IMG/VR virus record: IMGVR_UViG_3300036820_000040
Span: 1 to 40,113 of that record
Reading direction: 5' to 3' (one strand)
Source of the DNA: a virus
DNA: 40,113 nucleotides
Shown: positions 10,056-39,288 of the stretch, one piece after another
How positions within the stretch are numbered: position 1 is the first letter of the stretch
How the letters are laid out: every line of letters begins with the position of its first letter
Position numbers and translations under genes: made by a program
The notes under the pieces: model-generated
The model's database searches: none
Seen by the model: the letters and a program-made list of their open reading frames with translations, nothing else
What the model was told of the DNA's origin: nothing

Positions 10056-10460
10056 TTGAGGTTGTTGGGCAACGGCCACAGCAAGCCCGAGGTGGCCGCG
10101 CTCTGCCAAGTCAGCCTTCGCCGCGTCTACCAGGTGGCCGGCGTCAAGCGGCCCAAGCCGCGCGTCACGGCCGTGTTGATCGCCGAGATCGCCAAGCGGC
10201 GCGGGCGCGGAGAGTCGGTCCGCAGCATCGCCGCCGACTTGAAGATCTCCCGCCTGACTGCGTCACGCGCCACGCCGGCCGCACCGCCAGCGAAGCGACG
10301 GCCGACGCACCAGGTCACGGATGCGGAGCGCGCCGACGTGATCCGGCGTCTGCGGTCGAAGCAGGCAAAGCGCTGGATCGCGGAAGAGGTGGGCGTGAGC
10401 AGGGGGACGGTGGATCGAATCGAAGCGTCGCTTCGTGAGTCAGTAGTCAGCAGTCAGTAG
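10056..10460 (+). CDS. DNA-binding protein with two or three helix-turn-helix motifs
   Basis: 134 aa from a TTG start (GGGA 8 nt upstream). Three resolvase/transposase-like HTH segments are visible: GHSKPEVAALCQVSLRRVYQ, ESVRSIAADLKISRLTAS and RWIAEEVGVSRGTVDRIE. There is no recombinase catalytic domain, so it is probably a regulator. Divergent from the late genes, it could be the immunity or early/late switch protein. Its last codons (ESVVSSQ) lie within a 14-bp repeat, so the natural C-terminus may have been replaced by repeat insertion. Confidence 0.7.
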   Translation: MRLLGNGHSKPEVAALCQVSLRRVYQVAGVKRPKPRVTAVLIAEIAKRRGRGESVRSIAADLKISRLTASRATPAAPPAKRRPTHQVTDAERADVIRRLRSKQAKRWIAEEVGVSRGTVDRIEASLRESVVSSQ

Positions 10461-10465
10461 TCAGG
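10438..10465. repeat. Two copies of a 14-bp AGTCAGTAGTCAGC-type repeat
   Basis: AGTCAGTAGTCAGC followed by AGTCAGTAGTCAGG. The same family recurs in the same orientation at 10906-10933, so the two flank a segment of about 440 bp. Confidence 0.8.
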
Positions 10466-10829: not shown

Positions 10830-10905
10830 GGACTTCTCCAGTTCGTCGCCGCCCCCGAGTCGCCAAACTTACGGGGGCGGCGTTGTTGAGGAGTTTAACC
10901 GGGGG

Positions 10906-10933
10906 AGTCAGTGGTCAGTAGTCAGTGGTCAGC
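10906..10933. repeat. Second pair of the 14-bp AGTCAGTGGTCAG repeat
   Basis: AGTCAGTGGTCAGT followed by AGTCAGTGGTCAGC, differing from the 10438-10465 pair mainly at one R position. It resembles heptamer-type tandem repeats scattered between genes in planctomycete and cyanobacterial genomes (recollection, not searched). Confidence 0.75.
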
Positions 10934-10954
10934 AGGGGAAGAAGTTTAGCCACG

Positions 10955-10977
10955 GATGGACACAGATGAACACAGAT
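10955..10977. repeat. GATGRACACA decamer repeat
   Basis: GATGGACACA and GATGAACACA in tandem, followed by GAT. Strings of this type are common intergenic repeats in planctomycetes and relatives (recollection), so this looks like host-derived DNA carried by the phage. Confidence 0.65.
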
Positions 10978-10996
10978 AAGCGGGTTTTTTGGAGCG

Positions 10997-11272
10997 TCGC
11001 GCCGGCGCGAATACCCGTGCAAATTCTAGGCAGATTCTTGGGGTCGATGCGATGCAAGCGCGCGCTGGCGCGCGCTTTATGACAAATCTCCAGCTTTCGC
11101 GCCGGCGCGAATACTGTGCAGAATTCGCGCCGGCGCGAAGCTCAACGTGCGGGCGCGCTGGTCAGCACGCTGGCGCGAAAACCGGGCGGTGCAGCTTTCG
11201 CGCCAGCATCCCGAGCTTCGCGCCACCGTGCCGAGCTTCGCGCCCGCATGTTGAGCTTCGCGCTGGCGCGAA
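10997..11272. repeat. Block of TTCGCGCC palindromes and 20-bp iterons (possible origin or partition site)
   Basis: About ten copies of TTCGCGCC/GGCGCGAA in 276 bp with no convincing gene. Two are the full palindrome TTCGCGCCGGCGCGAA (11096-11111 and 11124-11139), with a near copy at 10997-11010. A 12-bp inverted repeat GCTGGCGCGAAA/TTTCGCGCCAGC spans 11169-11207. AAGCGCGCGC-TG-GCGCGCGCTT lies at 11056-11077. Direct repeats starting GAGCTTCGCGC recur every 20 bp at 11213, 11233 and 11253. Iterons two helical turns apart beside a control region suggest an initiator, ParB or repressor array. Confidence 0.7.
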
Positions 11273-11298
11273 TGCTGATCGTCGGCCAATGGCGACAC

Positions 11299-11328
11299 CT
11301 TATATTGTTTGGTGGTCTTGGTGGTTAA
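11299..11328 (-). promoter_or_regulatory. Minus-strand promoter candidate
   Basis: TTAACC, an 18-bp spacer, then TATAAG (5/6 match to a -10). It points toward the palindrome block and the 10614-10829 gene. Surrounding GGT/ACC triplet repeats (11311-11375) lower confidence in the -35. Confidence 0.3.
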
Positions 11329-11434
11329 TACCCACCACCACCAACGCTCAGCGCGCGCAGGGGGAGTGGTGGTGGTGGATTTCTTCGACGGGAAGGAAGA
11401 GACGCCGGGCTGTGTTATCCGGACTCGGATTGAT

Positions 11435-11463: not shown

Positions 11464-11488
11464 ACCCCCCTGCTTAACATAATCCGTC

Positions 11489-11680
11489 TTATGGGCGGGA
11501 ACTCGCAACGGCCAGGAGTTCCCGTCGCTTCCTTTCATCTTGGCCGCCGGCAGCATGGCCCTGCTTGTAACCCTTCTCGAAGCCGGTCGTATATGCAACC
11601 CTCAGCAGTTGCCAAAGCGAGAGCGCCACCACCAAAAGAACGAGCAGTCCGAGTAGCAGCCGACTGATCCAAAACCACAC
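11489..11680 (-). CDS. Small one-pass membrane protein with GYKQGH tail
   Basis: 63 aa from a GTG with GGAGG 5 nt upstream; an ATG at 11728 would add 16 residues but lacks this site. A strong membrane helix (LLLGLLVLLVVALSLWQLL) is followed by AYTTGFEKGYKQGHAAGGQDER. The same motif ends the 48-aa protein at 17232-17378, so the two are diverged copies. Perhaps a superinfection or envelope-modifying lysogeny gene; function unknown. Confidence 0.65.
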   Translation of the reverse strand: MWFWISRLLLGLLVLLVVALSLWQLLRVAYTTGFEKGYKQGHAAGGQDERKRRELLAVASSRP

Positions 11681-11710
11681 GGCGGCCTCCTTGTTCGGGA
11701 TGCAGGTGGC

Positions 11711-11729
11711 AATGGACTCATAGTCCATT
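11711..11729. promoter_or_regulatory. 8-3-8 palindromic operator candidate
   Basis: AATGGACT-CAT-AGTCCATT, a perfect inverted repeat between the upstream terminator and the membrane-protein start. It could bind a repressor, for example the neighbouring ribbon-helix-helix-like protein. Confidence 0.4.
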
Positions 11730-11773: not shown

Positions 11774-12019
11774 TCACCGGAACGATCGCCGCGGGCGCTG
11801 CGCATCCAGTAGCCCATTGCTCGCAAGCGCTTGGTGAATCAGTAAGCGTGCGGCGTCCGCGTCGGCCGAAAGCTCCATGCGCTCACGGAACGCCTTGACC
11901 GCTTCAGCCATCTCTTCGGAGACGCCGAAACTAAGATTCTTCTTCAACACGTCCACGCCCTTTCGCGGACGTCCGACTGATCGCCGAGGCTCATTTTGCA
12001 CAGCATTCATCTTAGACAT
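11774..12019 (-). CDS. Ribbon-helix-helix-like transcription regulator
   Basis: 81 aa. AGGAG lies 5 nt before ATG 12019 (a second ATG is adjacent at 12022). After a basic N-terminal arm (RRSVGRPRKG), KKNLSFGVSEEMAEAVKAFRERM and a second helix (DADAARLLIHQALAS) fit the beta-strand/helix/helix layout of Arc/CopG-type dimers. It is divergent from the integrase with a 183-bp spacer holding a palindrome, so it may control integrase expression or lysogeny. Confidence 0.6.
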   Translation of the reverse strand: MSKMNAVQNEPRRSVGRPRKGVDVLKKNLSFGVSEEMAEAVKAFRERMELSADADAARLLIHQALASNGLLDAQRPRRSFR

Positions 12020-12112
12020 CATAGCTCCTGTTTTTGGCTCGCGCTAGCATTTTTTAATTTTTCCATTTGAAATTGAAGGCGGGCGTGGTATTCTTCTGCC
12101 CCGCCGCTCAAC

Positions 12113-12202: not shown

Positions 12203-13234
12203 ATGCGGCCATTGAACGATCGGCCATGTCCGCCACGAAGCCACCTCATGTATCGCGCCCCTCCCCCACCGCCGCTGTTGCCGCGCGCGGAGGAATTCAA
12301 GGATGTAATCCTCTCTCGCGGACGGACACCCCAGCACGCACACACGACCTGCCGGCACATCAAGGAACTGCTCGCACTGGTCAAAACCATGCGCACGCCT
12401 CCGCGCGATCCTACGCATGCGGACCTCAAGAAATCGGAGGTGGAGCGGGCGCTGGGCGTCTTGCTGGTTCAGGGCCGATCCCACCGAACGCGGATGAGCT
12501 ACGCCCGGTCGCTCAAGAGCTTCCTGCGCTGGATGGGAGAAGAGGACGACGATCTGCGCGACCCGCTGCGAGCGCTCAAGCTGACCAGTTCCGACTGCGA
12601 CCGCCGGCACACGCGTCGGCCGCTGGCCGTCGAAGAACTCTACGCGGTGGTCCGCGCCGCTTACGCAGGCCCGATCTATTCGGGAATCACGGGAAAAGAG
12701 CGTGCGCTCTTGTACATCATCGCCGCATGGACCGGGATGCGCGGAGGCACGCTCCGCAAGTTGACGGTGAGCAGCTTCGCACTCGACAAGCCAATCCCGA
12801 CCGTGCGGGTGCAGGGGAACCAATCGAAGGGACGACGCCCCTACTACCTCGTGATCCGGCCGGACCTCGGCAAGCTGTTGGCCGAACACTTCGGCCAGAA
12901 GATGCCGGCCACGCTCGCCTTCAAAATGCCCGAGCGCACCAAGCTGGTCAGGATGCTGCGGAAGGATCTCAAGGCCGCCGGAGTTGCGTACTGCGACATC
13001 GAGAAGGACGACAGCGGTGTGACGCGGCGCGTGAACGTGCTCGACTTCCACGCGTTCCGTGGCACCTTTGCCAATACGCTGGCCATGGCAGGCAAGCCGA
13101 TCACGTGCGTGCAGGAATTGTGCATGCACGCCGACGCGCAGACCACGATGAAGTTTTACACGCAGGCGCGTCATCTCGATCAGCTCGAAACTTTGAATGC
13201 CCTTCCAGCGATCCCGAAGCTGGAAGCTTCCTGA
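12203..13234 (+). CDS. int: Tyrosine site-specific integrase
   Basis: 343 aa. Catalyses integration and, probably with an unidentified factor, excision. The full active-site set is visible: Arg180 in WTGMRGGTLR, Lys209 in GNQSKGRR, His283 and Arg286 in DFHAFRGTF, His309 in CMHADAQT, and Tyr319 in MKFYTQ. Residues about 30-120 form the core-binding SAM-like domain. ATG 12203 has GGGGA upstream; Met16 is an alternative. attP begins 1 bp after the stop, the usual tight int-attP pairing, and a terminator follows at 13337-13367. Confidence 0.93.
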   Translation: MRPLNDRPCPPRSHLMYRAPPPPPLLPRAEEFKDVILSRGRTPQHAHTTCRHIKELLALVKTMRTPPRDPTHADLKKSEVERALGVLLVQGRSHRTRMSYARSLKSFLRWMGEEDDDLRDPLRALKLTSSDCDRRHTRRPLAVEELYAVVRAAYAGPIYSGITGKERALLYIIAAWTGMRGGTLRKLTVSSFALDKPIPTVRVQGNQSKGRRPYYLVIRPDLGKLLAEHFGQKMPATLAFKMPERTKLVRMLRKDLKAAGVAYCDIEKDDSGVTRRVNVLDFHAFRGTFANTLAMAGKPITCVQELCMHADAQTTMKFYTQARHLDQLETLNALPAIPKLEAS

Positions 13235-13235
13235 A

Positions 13236-13290
13236 CATGGCCTCTATCGGAGTCGAACCGATACGCCCTTGCGGGCACAGGATTTTGAGT
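13236..13290 (-). other. attP core: 3' half of tRNA-Leu(CAA)
   Basis: Read on the minus strand this is the 3' half of a tRNA-Leu: anticodon loop CTCAAAA on an AGGA/TCCT stem, long variable arm GCCC-GCAA-GGGC, T-stem ATCGG/CCGAT with loop TTCGACT, acceptor strand AGAGGCC and discriminator A, no encoded CCA. No matching 5' half is present, so it is not a working gene. Integrating into the host tRNA 3' end would leave an intact tRNA. The exact crossover limits are unknown. Confidence 0.85.
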
Positions 13291-13336
13291 CCTTCCGTGG
13301 GCGCTAATTTGTGCGGTTTATGCGGTCGGTCTATGA

Positions 13337-17773: not shown

Positions 17774-18056
17774 ACAAGAAATTCCACAAATGATCGATCC
17801 TCTCGGCGAAAGCTGGGAGCAGCCGAAAGCCTCGGAAATCGTCATCGATCGGTGGTGTGCTGTGATGACGCGCGGGACCTTCATGCAGCTCAAGGATTAC
17901 TCCCTTTCTCTGCCGACCGGGGTCTATGCGGGGAAGATGTGGCGATTACTTGCGGGGAACGGCACCTGGTGGCTTTGCTGGTACGGTCCCAGTGACCATG
18001 ACCAGAACAGCATGGGCATCTGTCTGCGCCAGATTCTTCTGCTGGGGGACAATTGA
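17766..18056 (+). CDS. Small early protein of unknown function
   Basis: 96 aa. Starts at ATG 17766 within the end of the previous gene; its stop overlaps the TTG start of the ATPase (TTGA). Trp-rich: KMWRLLAGNGTWWLCWYG and MGICLRQILLL. It could fold as a small beta domain and, being directly before the ATPase, may be its partner. No family recognised. Confidence 0.55.
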   Translation: MVEQEIPQMIDPLGESWEQPKASEIVIDRWCAVMTRGTFMQLKDYSLSLPTGVYAGKMWRLLAGNGTWWLCWYGPSDHDQNSMGICLRQILLLGDN

Positions 18057-19657
18057 AGCATCCACAGACGATTCATCTCGGCTTCGAGGTTGGAACGGGG
18101 AAACCCGTCGAGATCCCGGTCAAGCATATGGCCGTCACCGGCCAGAGCCAGGAGGCCGGAAAGACTACCGCGCTCGAAGCGCTCATCACCCGATCGGGCC
18201 TGCGCGCGGTCGTGTTCAAAACCAAGCGCGGCGAGGGGAGCTTCGCGGCCGGCCGGAAGCTCAAGCCCTATTTCCGGGAGCGGGCCGATTGGGTTTTCGT
18301 GGCCAGCGTGATCGACGCCACATTGGGGGAGAAGAACAAGCTGCTCCGGTCCTTCTTGATGAAGGTCTGCCGGAACACCAAAACGCTGGCCCAGGTGCGG
18401 GCCAATGTGAAGGAAGTGTTGAAGACGGCCAAAGGGTTCAACGAATCGATCTACACCGAGATCGATGGTTACCTGGACCTGGTGGTGCCGCAGTTGAAAC
18501 AGCTTCCGCCGGCGGCGTCGATCGTGCTCGGGGCCGGGCTCAATGTCATGGACTTGTCGGATTACTCGTCGCAGCTGCAGGGGCTGGTGATCCGCTCGGT
18601 GATGGAGCACGTGTACGAACACGAGGAAGGCGTCATCACCGTGGTACCCGAGGCCTGGGAGTTTCTGCCCGAGTCGCGCGGCAGCCCGGTGAAGCTGGCG
18701 GCGGAGTCGCTGATCCGCAAGGGCGCATCCCTGCGAAACTACATGTGGCTCGACAGCCAGGACATGGGCGGCGTCTGGAAACTTCCGCTTCGCCAGGCCG
18801 GCGTCTGGCTGATCGGCGTGCAGCGGGAAGCCAACGAACTCAAGCGCGCGCTGTCGAACATCCCTGCCGGGATCCACAAGCCCAGCGCCGCCGACGTCGC
18901 CCGCCTGCAGCTCGGGCAGTTCTACGCCTGCTGGGGAAGCCATTCGATCCGAACCTATGTGCAGCCGGCGTGGATGGATGACACGAGGGCGAAGCTCGTC
19001 GCTAAGGGCGAAGTGCTGTTCGATGCGCCATCGCTCGCTCGCGCGGTCAATGCCGGCGACTTGCGGGCACAGGCTTTTGAGTCCAGCGCCACCAAGGGCG
19101 AAGCGGCTCCCGATCCAACCCCAACCGAGGAAGATGAAATGTCCAAGGAAGATGTCGAGTCAATCCGCGGCGCCATCAACGAACTCACCATGGCGATCCA
19201 CACGGCGTTGGGCACGAGAACTGGTGAGCCGGCGTCGACGGTCCCCAACGGTCAAAGCTCCGCGCCGCTCCCTGATTTCGAGCAGCTCTACCAAGCCTTC
19301 AAGAGGCGGTTCATCCAGGAGGCCGGCGACGACCCGGCGTTCCTCAAGGTGCTCGCTAGGCGGCCAAGGATGGAAGTCGAAGTGGATGAACCGACGATCA
19401 CCGCTGACGCCAAGGGCGGCGACGGGTTCATCGGGTTGCTCATCTCGGAGAAGTTCTTCGACGGCGTCGGCGCGACCGGAAACGCCGTGTTCATGCAGAT
19501 GCAGCAACGCGGGATCTCTGGCGCAAACCCCACGGCCTATGGCTGGTGTGACTCGATGGTCTCCAAAGGCTTCCTCACCAAAGTCCAGGACGGAAAGGTG
19601 AAGGTGTATCGCGCCGTGCCTGGGATGAAGGTGAACATCGTCAGGAAGAAATCGTGA
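18053..19657 (+). CDS. HerA/VirD4-like P-loop ATPase with C-terminal winged-helix-like domain
   Basis: 534 aa from a TTG start. The P-loop is GQSQEAGKTT (residues 30-39), followed by FKTKRGEGSF, and the Walker B position reads ITVVPEAWEF (residues 195-204), with Pro where Asp is usual but the catalytic Glu present. DSQDMGGVWK and QREANELKRALS fit later sensor regions of HerA/FtsK-type translocases. An acidic linker with MSKEDVESIRGAINELT leads to a C-terminal domain (DGFIGLLISEKFF...GWCDSMVSKGFLTKVQDGKVKVYRA) that reads as a winged helix. Probably a DNA translocase or loader acting with the initiator and methyltransferases. Confidence 0.7.
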   Translation: MKHPQTIHLGFEVGTGKPVEIPVKHMAVTGQSQEAGKTTALEALITRSGLRAVVFKTKRGEGSFAAGRKLKPYFRERADWVFVASVIDATLGEKNKLLRSFLMKVCRNTKTLAQVRANVKEVLKTAKGFNESIYTEIDGYLDLVVPQLKQLPPAASIVLGAGLNVMDLSDYSSQLQGLVIRSVMEHVYEHEEGVITVVPEAWEFLPESRGSPVKLAAESLIRKGASLRNYMWLDSQDMGGVWKLPLRQAGVWLIGVQREANELKRALSNIPAGIHKPSAADVARLQLGQFYACWGSHSIRTYVQPAWMDDTRAKLVAKGEVLFDAPSLARAVNAGDLRAQAFESSATKGEAAPDPTPTEEDEMSKEDVESIRGAINELTMAIHTALGTRTGEPASTVPNGQSSAPLPDFEQLYQAFKRRFIQEAGDDPAFLKVLARRPRMEVEVDEPTITADAKGGDGFIGLLISEKFFDGVGATGNAVFMQMQQRGISGANPTAYGWCDSMVSKGFLTKVQDGKVKVYRAVPGMKVNIVRKKS

Positions 19658-30466: not shown

Positions 30467-31384
30467 TCAGCTCGCGGTGATCGTGAGCTCGCCGTCGGGG
30501 GTGGGGCTGGTGGCCTGAAACTCCAGCTCGTCGGTGAGGATGCCAGCCCGATCCCCGTCCTGCGGCGGGTTCAGGAGCTGCAGGGCGGCGGCGGCGATGG
30601 TGATGATGTTGTTGGCCACGGTCCCGATCTGGCAGGAGAAGGCGATGCCCGTCTCGGCCAAATGGGCGGCATACCAGTCCTGGGTGCCGAGCGGCAACGC
30701 TTCGGGATCCACCTTAAAGACCGGGTTGCGGTCGGTGATGATGAAGGAATGGTAGCCCGTCACGTCGGAGACATCCTGGCGCGGGCTGACCACGTTCCCC
30801 ATGTCGAACTCGAGCTTGGACTGCTTGTAGGCGACGGTGGCATAGGTGATGACCGCCCCCGCGAAGCGAGGCGGCTGAACGGTGGGGAACGTGGGGGCGA
30901 TCATTGCCACCGACGATGGGGCGACCCACTTCCCGGTGAACTCCCATTCGATCATCGCCGGCTTGCCGTATTCGCCGGTGATTTTGAAGTTGCCCTGGGC
31001 CCCGCAGATGCTCTTGAACCGTCCCGCCTGGTAGAAGCCGAGGGTGATGGTGGTGGCGTTTCCCGTCACGGGCCCCCAGACGCCGGTATTCACCGCAAAA
31101 CCGCAGCCGGCCAGCAACACCGAGAGCCACTGCGGCGCGCTGGCCGCGTTGTAGATCTCAGTCTTGAAGGTCATCTTGCCGCTGCGGGCGCCGGGGATCG
31201 GATTGAGCTTGGTCAGGCTCCCCTGCCCCTGCCGCTGCGTGGCGGGGATGGCCGGAGTCATCTTCGGGTCGAAGATATTGAACACGCCCTGGGAGGCGCC
31301 GACGGTGGCGGCGGTCCCGGTGGTGGTCTCGACGGCCGCGGCGGCGACCCTCACCCGTGTGAGCAATGGAGTATCGGTGGCCAT
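30467..31384 (-). CDS. Major tail (tube) protein
   Basis: 305 aa, beta-rich with FKTEIYNAASAPQWLSVLLAGCGF, a pattern of lambda-type and similar tube proteins (GKMTFKTEI...). A C-terminal segment (GILTDELEFQATSPTPDGELTITAS) is Ig-like. GAGG precedes the ATG. The gene follows the gpU-like terminator protein and is followed by a strong hairpin, in keeping with high expression. Confidence 0.78.
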   Translation of the reverse strand: MATDTPLLTRVRVAAAAVETTTGTAATVGASQGVFNIFDPKMTPAIPATQRQGQGSLTKLNPIPGARSGKMTFKTEIYNAASAPQWLSVLLAGCGFAVNTGVWGPVTGNATTITLGFYQAGRFKSICGAQGNFKITGEYGKPAMIEWEFTGKWVAPSSVAMIAPTFPTVQPPRFAGAVITYATVAYKQSKLEFDMGNVVSPRQDVSDVTGYHSFIITDRNPVFKVDPEALPLGTQDWYAAHLAETGIAFSCQIGTVANNIITIAAAALQLLNPPQDGDRAGILTDELEFQATSPTPDGELTITAS

Positions 31385-34469: not shown

Positions 34470-35438
34470 TCAGGCGTCAGCCCCGGTCATCAGGTATCCC
34501 GCGCCGGCGTACAGGATCTGCTCGTCCGTGTCCTGCCGGCAGCGGATCACCGTGCCGCGCACCTTCTCTTCGCGGTAGCTTTCGACCGTCCCGCCGATCG
34601 AGCTGCCGTCCTCGCTCCAATGGAAGGTGCGGCCGATGCAGGGCTCCTTGAAGTCCTCGCTGTCGGTGGTGACATAGAAGCCGATCGAGCCCTGGGGCCA
34701 GATCGCGCTCAGGCTGACGGACTGCCCTTCATTGGCGGAGTTGGTTTGCCCGCCTGCCACGAGGACGCGCTTCACCCCGAAGGCCTGGGCGATCAGGTTG
34801 GTGGCCACGTCGAGCGGCAACTTCGGATCGTCCAGGCCGCTGAACTTGATCTGGCTGATCAGGTTCGCCGAGCGGCGGCAGTTCCAGAACTTCTTGACCG
34901 TCATCACGCAGGTGTCGGGATAGAGGCCGATGGCGGCGTAGATGGCCAGCGCCGCCGTCGACGCATCGGTGACCGGGTCGGAGGTGGCGATCGTGTTCCA
35001 ACTCACGGCGACGCCCGTGTTGCCGATCGTGCCCGTGCTGGTGAGCAACGGCACGACCCGGGATTCGTAGTTGCGCAGCACCGCGTCGCGAGCGCGCTTG
35101 GCGGCGACGGCTTCGGCGGAGAAGTAATTGACGTACATCTTCGCTTCGCGGTCATCCACCACGTCCTCCGCGCCGTTTTCCTTCACCGAGTAGGTTCCCG
35201 GCTTGAAGGTGTACTGGCCGCGGTTGTACCCGGCGCCGGGGGCGCGCTGGGTCTGGCGCATCATCAGAAGCTGCTCGATCGGGATGATGCCGAAGTTGCC
35301 GGCCTGCGTCGGCACATCGACGATGGTCAGCAGCTTGGTGCCAACGAAGCCCCGCCGGCTCGCGTCCAGGTCGTATTGCTCGAAACTGGAGGAGAGATCG
35401 GGGCGAAGGGTAGCTAACGCTTGACTTGGAGCGGGCAT
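34470..35438 (-). CDS. Major capsid protein
   Basis: 322 aa of the HK97-fold gpE/Mu-T-like type. Signs: RRGFVGTKLLTIVDVPTQAGNF, GIIPIEQLLMMRQTQRAPG, REAKMYVNYFSAEAVAAKRARDAV, and a C-terminal WPQGSIGFYVTTDSEDFKEPCIGRTF. Length is normal (lambda E 341). AAAGGG precedes the ATG. It follows the decoration gene and is followed by a strong hairpin, consistent with abundant product. Confidence 0.88.
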   Translation of the reverse strand: MPAPSQALATLRPDLSSSFEQYDLDASRRGFVGTKLLTIVDVPTQAGNFGIIPIEQLLMMRQTQRAPGAGYNRGQYTFKPGTYSVKENGAEDVVDDREAKMYVNYFSAEAVAAKRARDAVLRNYESRVVPLLTSTGTIGNTGVAVSWNTIATSDPVTDASTAALAIYAAIGLYPDTCVMTVKKFWNCRRSANLISQIKFSGLDDPKLPLDVATNLIAQAFGVKRVLVAGGQTNSANEGQSVSLSAIWPQGSIGFYVTTDSEDFKEPCIGRTFHWSEDGSSIGGTVESYREEKVRGTVIRCRQDTDEQILYAGAGYLMTGADA

Positions 35439-35887: not shown

Positions 35888-36124
35888 ATGAACGAAGAGT
35901 TTGAAAAGCTGCGGAGGAGCCATCCCGCGGTGTGCGGGTTCCTCAAGGCTGGCGGCACGCTGGAAGATTGCGTGGTGGCGCTGGCGGCTCAGAATGAGCG
36001 TTGGTTCAATCGGATCGTTTTGCTGGAGTCGATCTGCCCTCGGCGCATCAGGCTTGCGGACGGCACCGAGATGATCTGGCGCTGCCCAACCGAGCTGGTG
36101 CCGATGCTCGATGGCGGGACTTAG
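35888..36124 (+). CDS. Plus-strand small protein in the head operon (moron candidate)
   Basis: 78 aa; GGGAG 7 nt before the ATG. MNEEFEKLRRSHPAVCGFLK then LEDCVVALAAQNERWFNRIV and RRIRLADGTEMIWRCPTELV: compact alpha/beta, GC3-rich like the phage. It fills the gap between the protease 3' end (overlapping by 4 bp) and the decoration-gene start. Only 12 bp separate the divergent starts. No promoter is obvious; function unknown. Confidence 0.7.
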   Translation: MNEEFEKLRRSHPAVCGFLKAGGTLEDCVVALAAQNERWFNRIVLLESICPRRIRLADGTEMIWRCPTELVPMLDGGT

Positions 36125-36681
36125 TAGGACGCAGCGGCTTCGACCCGGCCCCGCTTGAACGCGGTGGCGCGCTGCTTCTCGGCCTCGGCGTACTCGTCCA
36201 GCAGACCCTTGTTTTCGACGGAGATCTGCGAAACCGCCTTGGCGCGGGAGATGCCCTTGTCGGTTTTGAGCTTCACCGCGGCCTCGAAGCGGGCCTGAAC
36301 GCTTCCGCCGCCAGCGCCGCCGTTGCGGGGCTGCCCTTCAAGCGCCGTGGTCACGCCATCGAAATCCGGGTCCGCCGCGGCGAGGTCTTTTTCGAGCTTC
36401 TCCACCTTGGCCTTCAGATCTTTGTTCTCGTTGGCGACGACGTCCGCGAACGCGGCGCGCGCCTGGATGAGCGTGGCATTGGCGCCGAGCTGGTCGACGA
36501 TGAAGCCGGAGTGGCTCGGGAACGCCGCCTTCAACTCCGCGGCGGTGGCAGGCTTGTTGCCCGCCTCGGCCCGGATCTGGGTGGTGGCGGCGGCGACGGC
36601 CGTCGCGACGGCAGCGGAAACGAGGGGGGCGAGGGCGTCGGGGTTTTTCTCCGCGAACGCCTTGAATTGAGCGAGGTCCAT
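36121..36681 (-). CDS. Nested scaffold protein (Nu3-like), internal start
   Basis: 186 aa in frame with the protease C-terminus, starting at internal ATG 36681 (MDLAQFKAFAEKN) with GGAG 6 nt upstream. Coiled-coil, Ala/Lys/Glu-rich (VANENKDLKAKVEKLEKDLA). In lambda the scaffold Nu3 is made from an internal start of gene C; the same is inferred here. Confidence 0.72.
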   Translation of the reverse strand: MDLAQFKAFAEKNPDALAPLVSAAVATAVAAATTQIRAEAGNKPATAAELKAAFPSHSGFIVDQLGANATLIQARAAFADVVANENKDLKAKVEKLEKDLAAADPDFDGVTTALEGQPRNGGAGGGSVQARFEAAVKLKTDKGISRAKAVSQISVENKGLLDEYAEAEKQRATAFKRGRVEAAASY

Positions 36682-37392
36682 TGCGGACTCCTGGTTAATT
36701 GGGACGGGGTTCGCGGCGCCACGCGGCGTCGGGGGTTTGCTGTTGGTCTCCTGAATGCGCGCGGCCACAAATCGCCGCAGTCGGTCGGGGGAATGGGCGA
36801 GCACCTGGTAATCGAAGGAGGCGGTGGCCCTGGCGGTGGGCGCATCCTCATCGTCATCGTCAACGATCGAATCGCACAGCCCGGCCGCCTTGGCCTCGCC
36901 GGCGGTGTACCAGGTCTCCGCGTCCATCGCGGCCTTCATCTCTTCGACGGTCTTGCCGCTCTTGTCGGCGTAGGTCTGGGCCAGCGTGTTGCAGATTTTG
37001 TCGAGCAGGTCGGCGGTCTTTTTCAGATCATCCGCATCGCCGAAAGCCATCGACTGCGGATTGTGGATCATCATGAAGGCGTTCTTGCCCATGCAGACTT
37101 CGTCGCCGGCCATGGCGATCACCGAGCCGATCGACGCCGCCAGGCCTTCGACGCAAACGGTGATCGTCGCCGGGTGTTCCTTGATGGCGTTGTGGATTGC
37201 CACGCCGTCGAACACGTCGCCCCCCGGCGTGTTCATCCGCACCTTGATGTTCTTGGCGGTGATGCCGTTCAGGTCATTCACGAAGCGCTCGGCGCCGATG
37301 CCCCATGCCCCGATCACGTCGTAAATCATCACCTCGGCCGAGTCGTCCGCGGCCTTGTTGACGATGCTGTACCAGCAGTTCGCTTTGCTCAT
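36121..37392 (-). CDS. Prohead ClpP/S49-like protease with C-terminal scaffold
   Basis: 423 aa. N-terminal ClpP-type domain (about 1-190): MNTPGGDVFDGVAI, catalytic Ser87 in GLAASIGSVIAMAGD, His110 in MMIHNPQS and a likely Asp131. A variable linker of acidic residues (DDDDEDAP) and a helical scaffold domain (about 238-420) follow. Matches the lambda C/Nu3 architecture. ATG shares ATGA with the DUF1737-like gene stop. Confidence 0.87.
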   Translation of the reverse strand: MSKANCWYSIVNKAADDSAEVMIYDVIGAWGIGAERFVNDLNGITAKNIKVRMNTPGGDVFDGVAIHNAIKEHPATITVCVEGLAASIGSVIAMAGDEVCMGKNAFMMIHNPQSMAFGDADDLKKTADLLDKICNTLAQTYADKSGKTVEEMKAAMDAETWYTAGEAKAAGLCDSIVDDDDEDAPTARATASFDYQVLAHSPDRLRRFVAARIQETNSKPPTPRGAANPVPINQESAMDLAQFKAFAEKNPDALAPLVSAAVATAVAAATTQIRAEAGNKPATAAELKAAFPSHSGFIVDQLGANATLIQARAAFADVVANENKDLKAKVEKLEKDLAAADPDFDGVTTALEGQPRNGGAGGGSVQARFEAAVKLKTDKGISRAKAVSQISVENKGLLDEYAEAEKQRATAFKRGRVEAAASY

Positions 37393-37739
37393 TGGGGATG
37401 CCGGATAAGGGCCTGGAGAAACGTGGGGCGGTCGCCGTGGAGGACCGCGGAAATGCCGCCGAGCGGCGTCCAGCCGTCGGCGAGCAGCTCGTTGACGCGG
37501 ATCGTCAGGTTGTCGAGCAGGATCCCGCCGACCACCTGGTATTCCTCCGCACCGAGCAACCGCACCCTCCCCGGCTCGAAGTTCTGGACTGGATCAGCCG
37601 GCGCGGATGCCGGCGATTCGCCGGCGGCTTGACCCGCGGACAAGTCGGCCGCGGTGGCAGGCTGGCCCGCCGGCTCAATCTTCTTCGGGGTCGGTTCCGG
37701 GTTCGTCGGCGGTTTCGGGGTCTTCGGGGTCTTGGCCAT
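37389..37739 (-). CDS. DUF1737-like small protein between portal and protease
   Basis: 116 aa. Pro/Thr-rich disordered N-terminus (about 60 residues), then YQVVGGILLDNLTIRVNELL-ADGWTPLGGISAVLHGD, matching the DUF1737 layout of Tyr-x-Val-Val, Val-Asn and GW-x-P-x-GG. It overlaps the end of the portal gene by 65 bp and is ATGA-coupled to the protease. DUF1737 proteins are frequent small phage proteins of unknown role. Confidence 0.7.
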   Translation of the reverse strand: MAKTPKTPKPPTNPEPTPKKIEPAGQPATAADLSAGQAAGESPASAPADPVQNFEPGRVRLLGAEEYQVVGGILLDNLTIRVNELLADGWTPLGGISAVLHGDRPTFLQALIRHPQ

Positions 37740-39288
37740 CGGGCGTTCCTGGTTGGCCGGGCGCGCCCGGCGTGATGATCGCGTCTCGGGTCATGTTCGA
37801 TTTGCTCAGCACAATATTGAGCTTCTTGAAGAGCGCCGTTTCGCGAGCCCGAACCGCGGTGATGTCGGTCAGTTCTTTCCCGTGCTGCTGCAGCACGCCG
37901 GTGACGGTTTCCAGCCCGCTGTCGATCGCCATCTGGGCGGCCTGAATCTCCTTGACCGGATCGACCCAGGCCCAGCCCGGTGCGATCCACTGGTGCTTCC
38001 ACCACTGGGGCCGCGTGCCATTGCCGGGGTCGGCCAGAAGCGAATTGGGGACGAGGAGCTGGCCGTTCTTGACCCACTTGCAGAGCCGCCACCGGTAGAT
38101 CCGGGACATGACGCATTCGCAGAAGAACTGCTGCTGCGTCCGGAAGCTGCGATACGCCTGCAGGAGGCTGGCGCGGGCGGAGGAGTAATTGGTTCTGCTG
38201 AAATCCAGCAGCACCAGCTCCAGCGGCAGGCCGAGCGTCAGGCCGGCGAACCGCAGCAGCGCCGCCATGAAGTCCGGAAAATTCTGCGTCGGCTGCGTCG
38301 GGTTGACGCCCTTCACATCCATGCCGGCGGGCAGATACCGGACCATGCCGGGCTGCATGTTGTCGATCTTTTCAAACCGCTCGCCGGTTTGCTGGGCCGG
38401 AAGGTTTCCCAGCGTCTTGGGGGCGGTCCCCCCGGTGACGATCAGGCCCTGGCAGGCGGCGATGCGCGCCGCCACGATCACCGCTTCCTTGAAGCCGTCG
38501 ATCTGGTCGAAGAGCTGATACTCCTGCGAGAAGACCGGCTCGCCACGCACCTGGCCGAGGCGCTTCATCCGCGGGTAGAAGACAAAGTTCTTGGCCGGGA
38601 TGTAGCTCTCTTCGCTCTGGGCTCCCAGGCGATTGAAGGGCACGATGTAGTAACCGAGGGCACGGTTGTCATCGTTGAACTTGATGCCGTCGACGATCCC
38701 CTCCTCCGGCTTCCACCCGCCGCCCAGGGTGTCGATCAGATCTCCCTCGTAACCCTGCAGGTAGCAGCGATCGCCCCGGCTCACCAGACCGCACCCGACG
38801 TCCCCGTCGAGCAGGTGGTGGCGGTAGAGGACCTGTTGAAAACCGGAAGCGCTGAAAACGCCACGGATGTCGGCGTTGTCGAGCCAGTCGCGCCACATCG
38901 GCTCGACCGTGGCGTTGAACTTGTCGTCCGGCGTCGTCACCTGCAGACGCATTCCATGGCCGATGACGTTCTCCACCGCCCGATCGAGCATCCCGACCGC
39001 CAGCGGATTGTTCATCACCAACTGCCGCCCCCGGTCGCGCAGCCTGGTCAAGCGCCAGCGGTTCAGCGGATCGTTACCGCCGTGGTAGGCGCGGCTTGGA
39101 GGCCAGTAGGAATCCAAGCGGTTTGGCGTGTCGGCGCCGTACAGGTTCTGGATCGTTCGGGCGCTCTCCAGTTGCACCCGCGAGAAGGCACGCTTTGCCG
39201 CCCACGCTGGCGAGACGGCCTCGATCGCGCGTTCGATGAAAGGGAGCTGGGGCACGTTGGAAAAATCAGACGCCGGAGATCGGGTCAA
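37675..39288 (-). CDS. Portal protein (lambda gpB type)
   Basis: 537 aa. Dodecameric portal through which DNA enters. Features: RDRGRQLVMNNPLAVGMLDR, VIGHGMRLQV, GDVGCGLVSRGDRCYLQ, LGYYIVPFNRLGA, and DFSRTNYSSARASLLQAYR, typical of the lambda portal family. Acidic, Gly/Pro-rich C-terminus. Start is TTG 39288, overlapping the gpW-like gene; a later GTG 39255 is possible. Confidence 0.9.
   Translation of the reverse strand: MTRSPASDFSNVPQLPFIERAIEAVSPAWAAKRAFSRVQLESARTIQNLYGADTPNRLDSYWPPSRAYHGGNDPLNRWRLTRLRDRGRQLVMNNPLAVGMLDRAVENVIGHGMRLQVTTPDDKFNATVEPMWRDWLDNADIRGVFSASGFQQVLYRHHLLDGDVGCGLVSRGDRCYLQGYEGDLIDTLGGGWKPEEGIVDGIKFNDDNRALGYYIVPFNRLGAQSEESYIPAKNFVFYPRMKRLGQVRGEPVFSQEYQLFDQIDGFKEAVIVAARIAACQGLIVTGGTAPKTLGNLPAQQTGERFEKIDNMQPGMVRYLPAGMDVKGVNPTQPTQNFPDFMAALLRFAGLTLGLPLELVLLDFSRTNYSSARASLLQAYRSFRTQQQFFCECVMSRIYRWRLCKWVKNGQLLVPNSLLADPGNGTRPQWWKHQWIAPGWAWVDPVKEIQAAQMAIDSGLETVTGVLQQHGKELTDITAVRARETALFKKLNIVLSKSNMTRDAIITPGAPGQPGTPDGQDPEDPETADEPGTDPEED

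Follow-up and report, generated by a model that had tools for sequence, protein, structure and literature searches.

The window analyzed here is the whole of an IMG/VR virus record, 40,113 bases long with 65% G+C. Its late genes are encoded on the minus strand and include those for the portal (37675-39288), the head maturation protease (36121-37392), the major head protein (34470-35438) and a minor tail protein (30467-31384), as well as tail-fibre-like and lipase genes between 3 and 7 kb. The early genes, on the plus strand, extend from 13.4 to ~23 kb and include two DNA methyltransferases, one of which (20489) is fused to a ParB-like domain. The tyrosine integrase of this temperate phage, 343 aa long, is encoded at 12203-13234 (+). 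To the left of this gene, an array of palindromes and iterons built on the 8-mer TTCGCGCC spans 10996-11277, as delimited by clustering, repeat and folding analyses. Based on this gene layout, the array occupies a noncoding control region, with the leftward late genes on one side and the rightward integrase and early genes on the other.

Directly downstream of the integrase gene, the 3′ part of a tRNA-Leu(CAA) can be recognized by eye on the minus strand (~13238-13300). This fragment, called neither by ARAGORN nor by Rfam, is the probable attP core, and no match to it with up to three mismatches was found in 294 Planctomycetota genomes. Relatives of the integrase that are 30-40% identical occur in many of the 132 genomes with matches among these 294, Planctomycetota being the only phylum searched, which makes a planctomycete host plausible. 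Single-protein scans of IMG/VR with the integrase, the portal and the methyltransferase returned no relatives, and no relatives of the phage as a whole appeared in the scans that were run. The early open reading frames (ORFs) have almost no family matches, and no recognizable initiator, helicase or polymerase is encoded in the window. One early protein of 534 aa (18053-19657, +) has the look of a HerA/FtsK-type ATPase by eye (TGQSQEAGKTT); it has no significant match in Pfam, PHROGs, NCBIfam, phages or the PDB and none in 246 Planctomycetota genomes.

The 8-mer TTCGCGCC is present in 17 exact copies in the window, compared with a mean of 6.3 (sd 2.6, maximum 15) in 100 shuffles, and 10 of these copies, in both orientations (TTCGCGCC/GGCGCGAA), are packed into the 269 bp from 11004 to 11272. 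With 10 copies per 300 bp it is the most clustered 8-mer of the window; the runner-up reaches 6 and is itself part of the array, and across 60 Markov-simulated sequences of 40 kb each no 8-mer exceeded 6 copies per 300 bp. These counts confirm that the array is real, with clustering far beyond chance. ORFs that cross it lack the codon-position GC pattern typical of real genes and, since its period is 20 bp, the repeat cannot encode a peptide repeat. The sequence-only reading, which had noted about ten copies in both orientations and no gene, is borne out on these points.

The perfect 16-bp palindrome TTCGCGCCGGCGCGAA occurs twice, at 11096-11111 and 11124-11139, the first copy forming the inner part of a longer palindrome (palindrome 2, CAGCTTTCGCGCC followed by GGCGCGAATACTG, 11091-11116). 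Two further 16-bp palindromes with one mismatch lie at 10996-11011 (palindrome 1, GTCGCGCC followed by GGCGCGAA) and at 11257-11272 (palindrome 4). A variant, fifth palindrome, AAGCGCGCGC TG GCGCGCGCTT, was identified from repeat families and direct reading at ~11056-11077, where it forms the 22-bp near-palindrome AAGCGCGCGCTGGCGCGCGCTT. Tandem direct repeats of 20 bp with the consensus TTCGCGCCAGCATGCCGAGC extend over 11197-11277 (+; TRF score 92), with phased starts at 11197, 11217, 11237 and 11257. The two perfect palindromes and the phased repeats had already been described from the letters and were recovered here, and an architecture of inverted arms, absent from that description, can be added. 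The stretches 11119-11186 and 11210-11277 are mirror-image arms of a 68-nt inverted repeat, 84% complementary and with 23 nt between them. Each arm has a palindrome at its end followed by 20-bp steps inward: the left arm holds palindrome 3 (11124-11139) and units from 11132, 11152 and 11172, and the right arm, counted from its outer end, holds units at 11257 (part of palindrome 4), 11237 and 11217, the series continuing to 11197, where the first direct-repeat unit starts inside the hairpin loop. Some of the palindromes lie outside the arms.

Folded as single-stranded DNA, 10990-11290 reaches -116.4 kcal/mol (z -11.3), and none of 100 shuffles was as stable. By a simple score the array hairpin (37) ranks above the best hairpin of all 104 other viral loci compared, the next best scoring 26, although these loci had been retrieved for other purposes and do not form a random sample. 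A protelomerase/tos-like telomere was considered for the palindromes and discarded, the recombinase being an ordinary phage integrase. Next to the array there is also a perfect 12-bp inverted repeat, CCACCACCACCA and TGGTGGTGGTGG, with a 23-nt loop (11332-11378).

When units were compared within arms, column identity was 0.90 in the 8-mer and 0.42 in the remaining 12 bp (permutation p=0.0001, an optimistic value because the 8-mer was picked for recurring, so that the true significance is lower). An 8-mer kept over diverged spacers would favor iteron-like repeats rather than simple slippage repeats. Spacer identity is 0.69 between arms, from which the arms appear to be related by inverted duplication as well, or to be kept alike by the hairpin. 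The most parsimonious history would be tandem growth, followed by spacer divergence with the 8-mer kept and then by inverted duplication, and such a history would favor, short of proof, a word that is bound by protein.

The array was not found in other phage records, blastn against phages gave no match, and blastn against plasmids gave one weak 45-bp match in unannotated DNA. The exact 16-bp palindrome is present in 18 other IMG/VR contigs, none of which has an array. Two looser patterns were set aside: three copies of TTCGCGCC with gaps of up to 30 occur in at least 119 contigs, with a spacing mostly in multiples of 15 bp, and were taken, going by that spacing, as probable coding repeats of the pentapeptide type, and the mixed-orientation 8-mer pattern in 6 contigs was put down to chance, as isolated matches within coding sequence. 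Among the loci fetched, a single other viral type carries a mixed-orientation TTCGCGCC array. In this phage type (loci L023, 607-801, and L028, 13011-13205), eight copies of TTCGCGCC/GGCGCGAA lie within 195 bp. They occupy all three reading frames, in either orientation, and sit at the 3′ terminus of a gene that has no match in Pfam and whose distant tblastn relatives are annotated as AAA ATPase and DNA primase/helicase. Copies in all frames would argue for selection on the DNA word, although the parallel concerns one phage type and was found by scanning with TTCGCGCC, a biased probe. The two arrays share the 8-mer, its two orientations and their phage-borne nature. Unlike ours, the L023/L028 array lies inside a coding region, a regular 20-bp unit and a large hairpin were not noted in it, and the phage is otherwise unrelated as far as could be seen.

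As judged from the sequence, the array is probably a cis-acting protein-binding site. The dedicated binding array proposed in the sequence-only reading would be the best fit because the 8-mer is conserved over diverged spacers, its copies lie in both orientations, the region is noncoding and the array is not a general repeat in the sampled Planctomycetota. One candidate binder is a 134-aa protein (10056-10460, +) that has helix-turn-helix motifs, two or three in number (HTH_23, HTH_38, HTH_7), and lacks a catalytic domain; it also shows a weak likeness to Cbp1, a protein that binds repeats (E 0.003, well short of the cut-off), and to the helix-turn-helix domains of IS21 transposases. Another is an 82-aa protein (11774-12022, -), ribbon-helix-helix-like by eye only and with no family match; structure predictions for two candidate binders, this one included, were of low confidence. 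The early protein 13414 is a candidate initiator by position only. It is without known relatives, with none in 246 Planctomycetota genomes, and its gene contains no iterons or repeat array. The array does not fit arm-type attP sites of the integrase, which should lie within a few hundred bp of the core, as it is 2 kb from the tRNA-like att fragment.

Regarding function, we favor an iteron array of a temperate phage that acts in cis, most likely as a replication origin or copy-control site, with a probability of about 0.4. What favors an origin is the 20-bp phasing together with the independent TTCGCGCC array in the primase/helicase-like gene of the L023/L028 phage type. A phage-encoded DNA-binding protein, possibly that of 10056, 11774 or 13414, would bind TTCGCGCC half-sites; the 20-bp spacing would bring consecutive sites to roughly one side of the helix, which could lead to a nucleoprotein filament along each arm, and the palindromes would take dimers. 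The mirror-image arms could permit bidirectional loading of the complex, or extrusion of a hairpin that aids DNA opening or priming. The protein complex would open or mark the DNA for replication, and the inverted arms could provide symmetry or a handcuffing type of control, iteron handcuffing having been described for plasmids (PMC6312765). The standard plan of an oriV consists of iterons, DnaA boxes and an A+T-rich region (PMC6312765). Here, repeats of a conserved word are phased at 20 bp in both arms. Against an origin, the A+T-richer stretch adjoining the array (11295-11334, 60% A+T), a possible melting region, is modest, only one DnaA-like site lies inside the array (11115, one mismatch), the exact match being 700 bp off at 11994, and family searches found no Rep domain near the array or any recognizable initiator in the window. 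GC skew, which had been suggested as a check, has no clear switch at the array and was uninformative. If the array is an origin, it would mark where replication is controlled in a phage type, probably one of planctomycetes, whose early genes match almost nothing known. It would then serve as a test case for iterons whose inverted arms are able to fold into a long hairpin. The presence of a TTCGCGCC array in the primase/helicase-like gene of an unrelated phage would also make TTCGCGCC a candidate origin iteron to seek in other G+C-rich phages.

A multi-site operator, on which a regulator would bind cooperatively to palindromes and half-sites, perhaps with looping, and so set the switch between lysogeny and lysis, ranks below origin or copy control and is rather unlikely. 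Such a switch would be well placed in this long stretch of noncoding DNA, which separates the leftward late operon from the rightward integrase and early genes and has small genes of DNA-binding type on its flanks, and the palindromes, with their outer conserved CAG/CTG, resemble dimer sites. However, no promoter-like (sigma-70-like) site overlaps the array, although promoters of the host group may differ, and no CI- or Cro-like repressor was recognized. Strict 20-bp phasing of tandem iterons in two inverted arms is seldom seen among repressor operators. The origin is placed above the operator mainly because the L023/L028 copies lie in all reading frames.

It is doubtful that the array is a noncoding minisatellite with an inverted duplication, similar to those in bacterial intergenic DNA and without a dedicated function. 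Its surroundings lend some weight to this explanation, as it adjoins tracts of AGTCAGT (10906-10933) and CACGGATGGACACAGATGAACACAGAT (10945-10982) with many copies in Planctomycetota; AGTCAGT heptamer and CACAGATGAA tracts at 10438-10464 and 10906-10977 of the window are repeats dispersed in planctomycete chromosomes that here lie inside a phage. Part of 10900-11300 is matched in 50 of the 294 Planctomycetota genomes, mostly through the AGTCAGT and CACAGATGAA tracts. The array itself, whose scattering through the host genome would have spoken for a general repeat, was not found in these 294 genomes, a set that may lack the true host; only scattered short partial matches were seen, and the nine that were fetched are short partial alignments with no arrays, apparently due to chance in coding sequence. 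Three TTCGCGCC copies at 20-bp phase are present at 13 bacterial genomic sites spread over many phyla, and those inspected are direct tandem minisatellites, mostly intergenic, none of them inverted. Several (L031, L033, L036-L039, L042 and L043), from unrelated bacterial phyla, contain TTCGCGCC mostly as (G)CTTCGCGCC. They share the word with the phage array, and the 20-bp period by construction of the search, whereas they are direct only, chromosomal and, in most, nearly identical in the spacers between units. The spacer identity of 0.69 between arms and 0.42 within them is what inverted duplication predicts, but the 8-mer has not diverged while the spacers have. Long hairpins are, moreover, usually purged.

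A segregation or dimer-resolution site, either a parS-like centromere or accessory sites for Xer recombination, is very unlikely. A dif-like 28-mer, CCCGCCCATAA-GACGGA-TTATGTTAAGC, does lie ~200 bp to the right of the array (11472-11499, -), with an exact core CATAA-N6-TTATGTTAA at 11474-11493, and the 11774 protein is of ribbon-helix-helix appearance. The same core pattern, however, is found in Planctomycetota no more often than control patterns and was picked out post hoc, and the 28-mer overlaps the 3′ end of a small ORF (11489-11728). In cer-type sites the accessory DNA lies on the other (XerC) side, and a phage with its own integrase and tRNA-like att fragment has no need of plasmid maintenance. 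The partition site that the sequence-only reading had included among the possible roles of its binding array is the part that fared worst: no ParA was found among the scanned proteins, nor a ParA/ParB pair, and the ParB-like domain belongs to the methyltransferase. A combined scheme, in which array and dif-like site would form a plasmid-like maintenance cassette of an integrating phage, with hairpin-forming inverted iterons that start or regulate replication, host XerCD that resolves multimers and persistence in integrated or plasmid form, strikes us as far-fetched. A structured RNA or transcription barrier, with the hairpin acting in a leftward transcript as terminator, attenuator or small RNA, is highly improbable. 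RNA folding on the two strands (z -8.7 and -7.3) speaks for it, but no Rfam family reaches threshold, no T-tract follows the stem, conservation tracks the repeated 8-mer and the hairpin does not take in all of the palindromes.

Compared with known systems, the array resembles REP/BIME palindromic repeats (PMC3733652) in its clustered, G+C-rich, hairpin-capable palindromes, but it is not dispersed in any genome searched and, by eye, lacks the GTAG/CGTC tag. The replication origin or copy-control reading brings it closer to iteron origins, such as the plasmid oriV of RK2 and R6K and phage origins whose iterons lie within the initiator gene or close to it. With these it shares a short conserved word, a phase of about two helical turns, inverted copies, a noncoding location and an A+T-richer stretch nearby, whereas it differs in its mirror-image arms that form one hairpin, its weak A+T-rich region and its want of an adjacent recognized Rep gene or DnaA-box cluster. 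The oriV of IncQ plasmids (RSF1010) has tandem 20-bp iterons and hairpin priming sites. By description rather than by sequence, the array is like it in having 20-bp tandem units near strong inverted repeats; unlike the IncQ oriV, no RepA/RepB′/RepC-like genes were found, and in the phage the iterons themselves form the hairpin. The array belongs to a known kind of element but is laid out in an unusual way.
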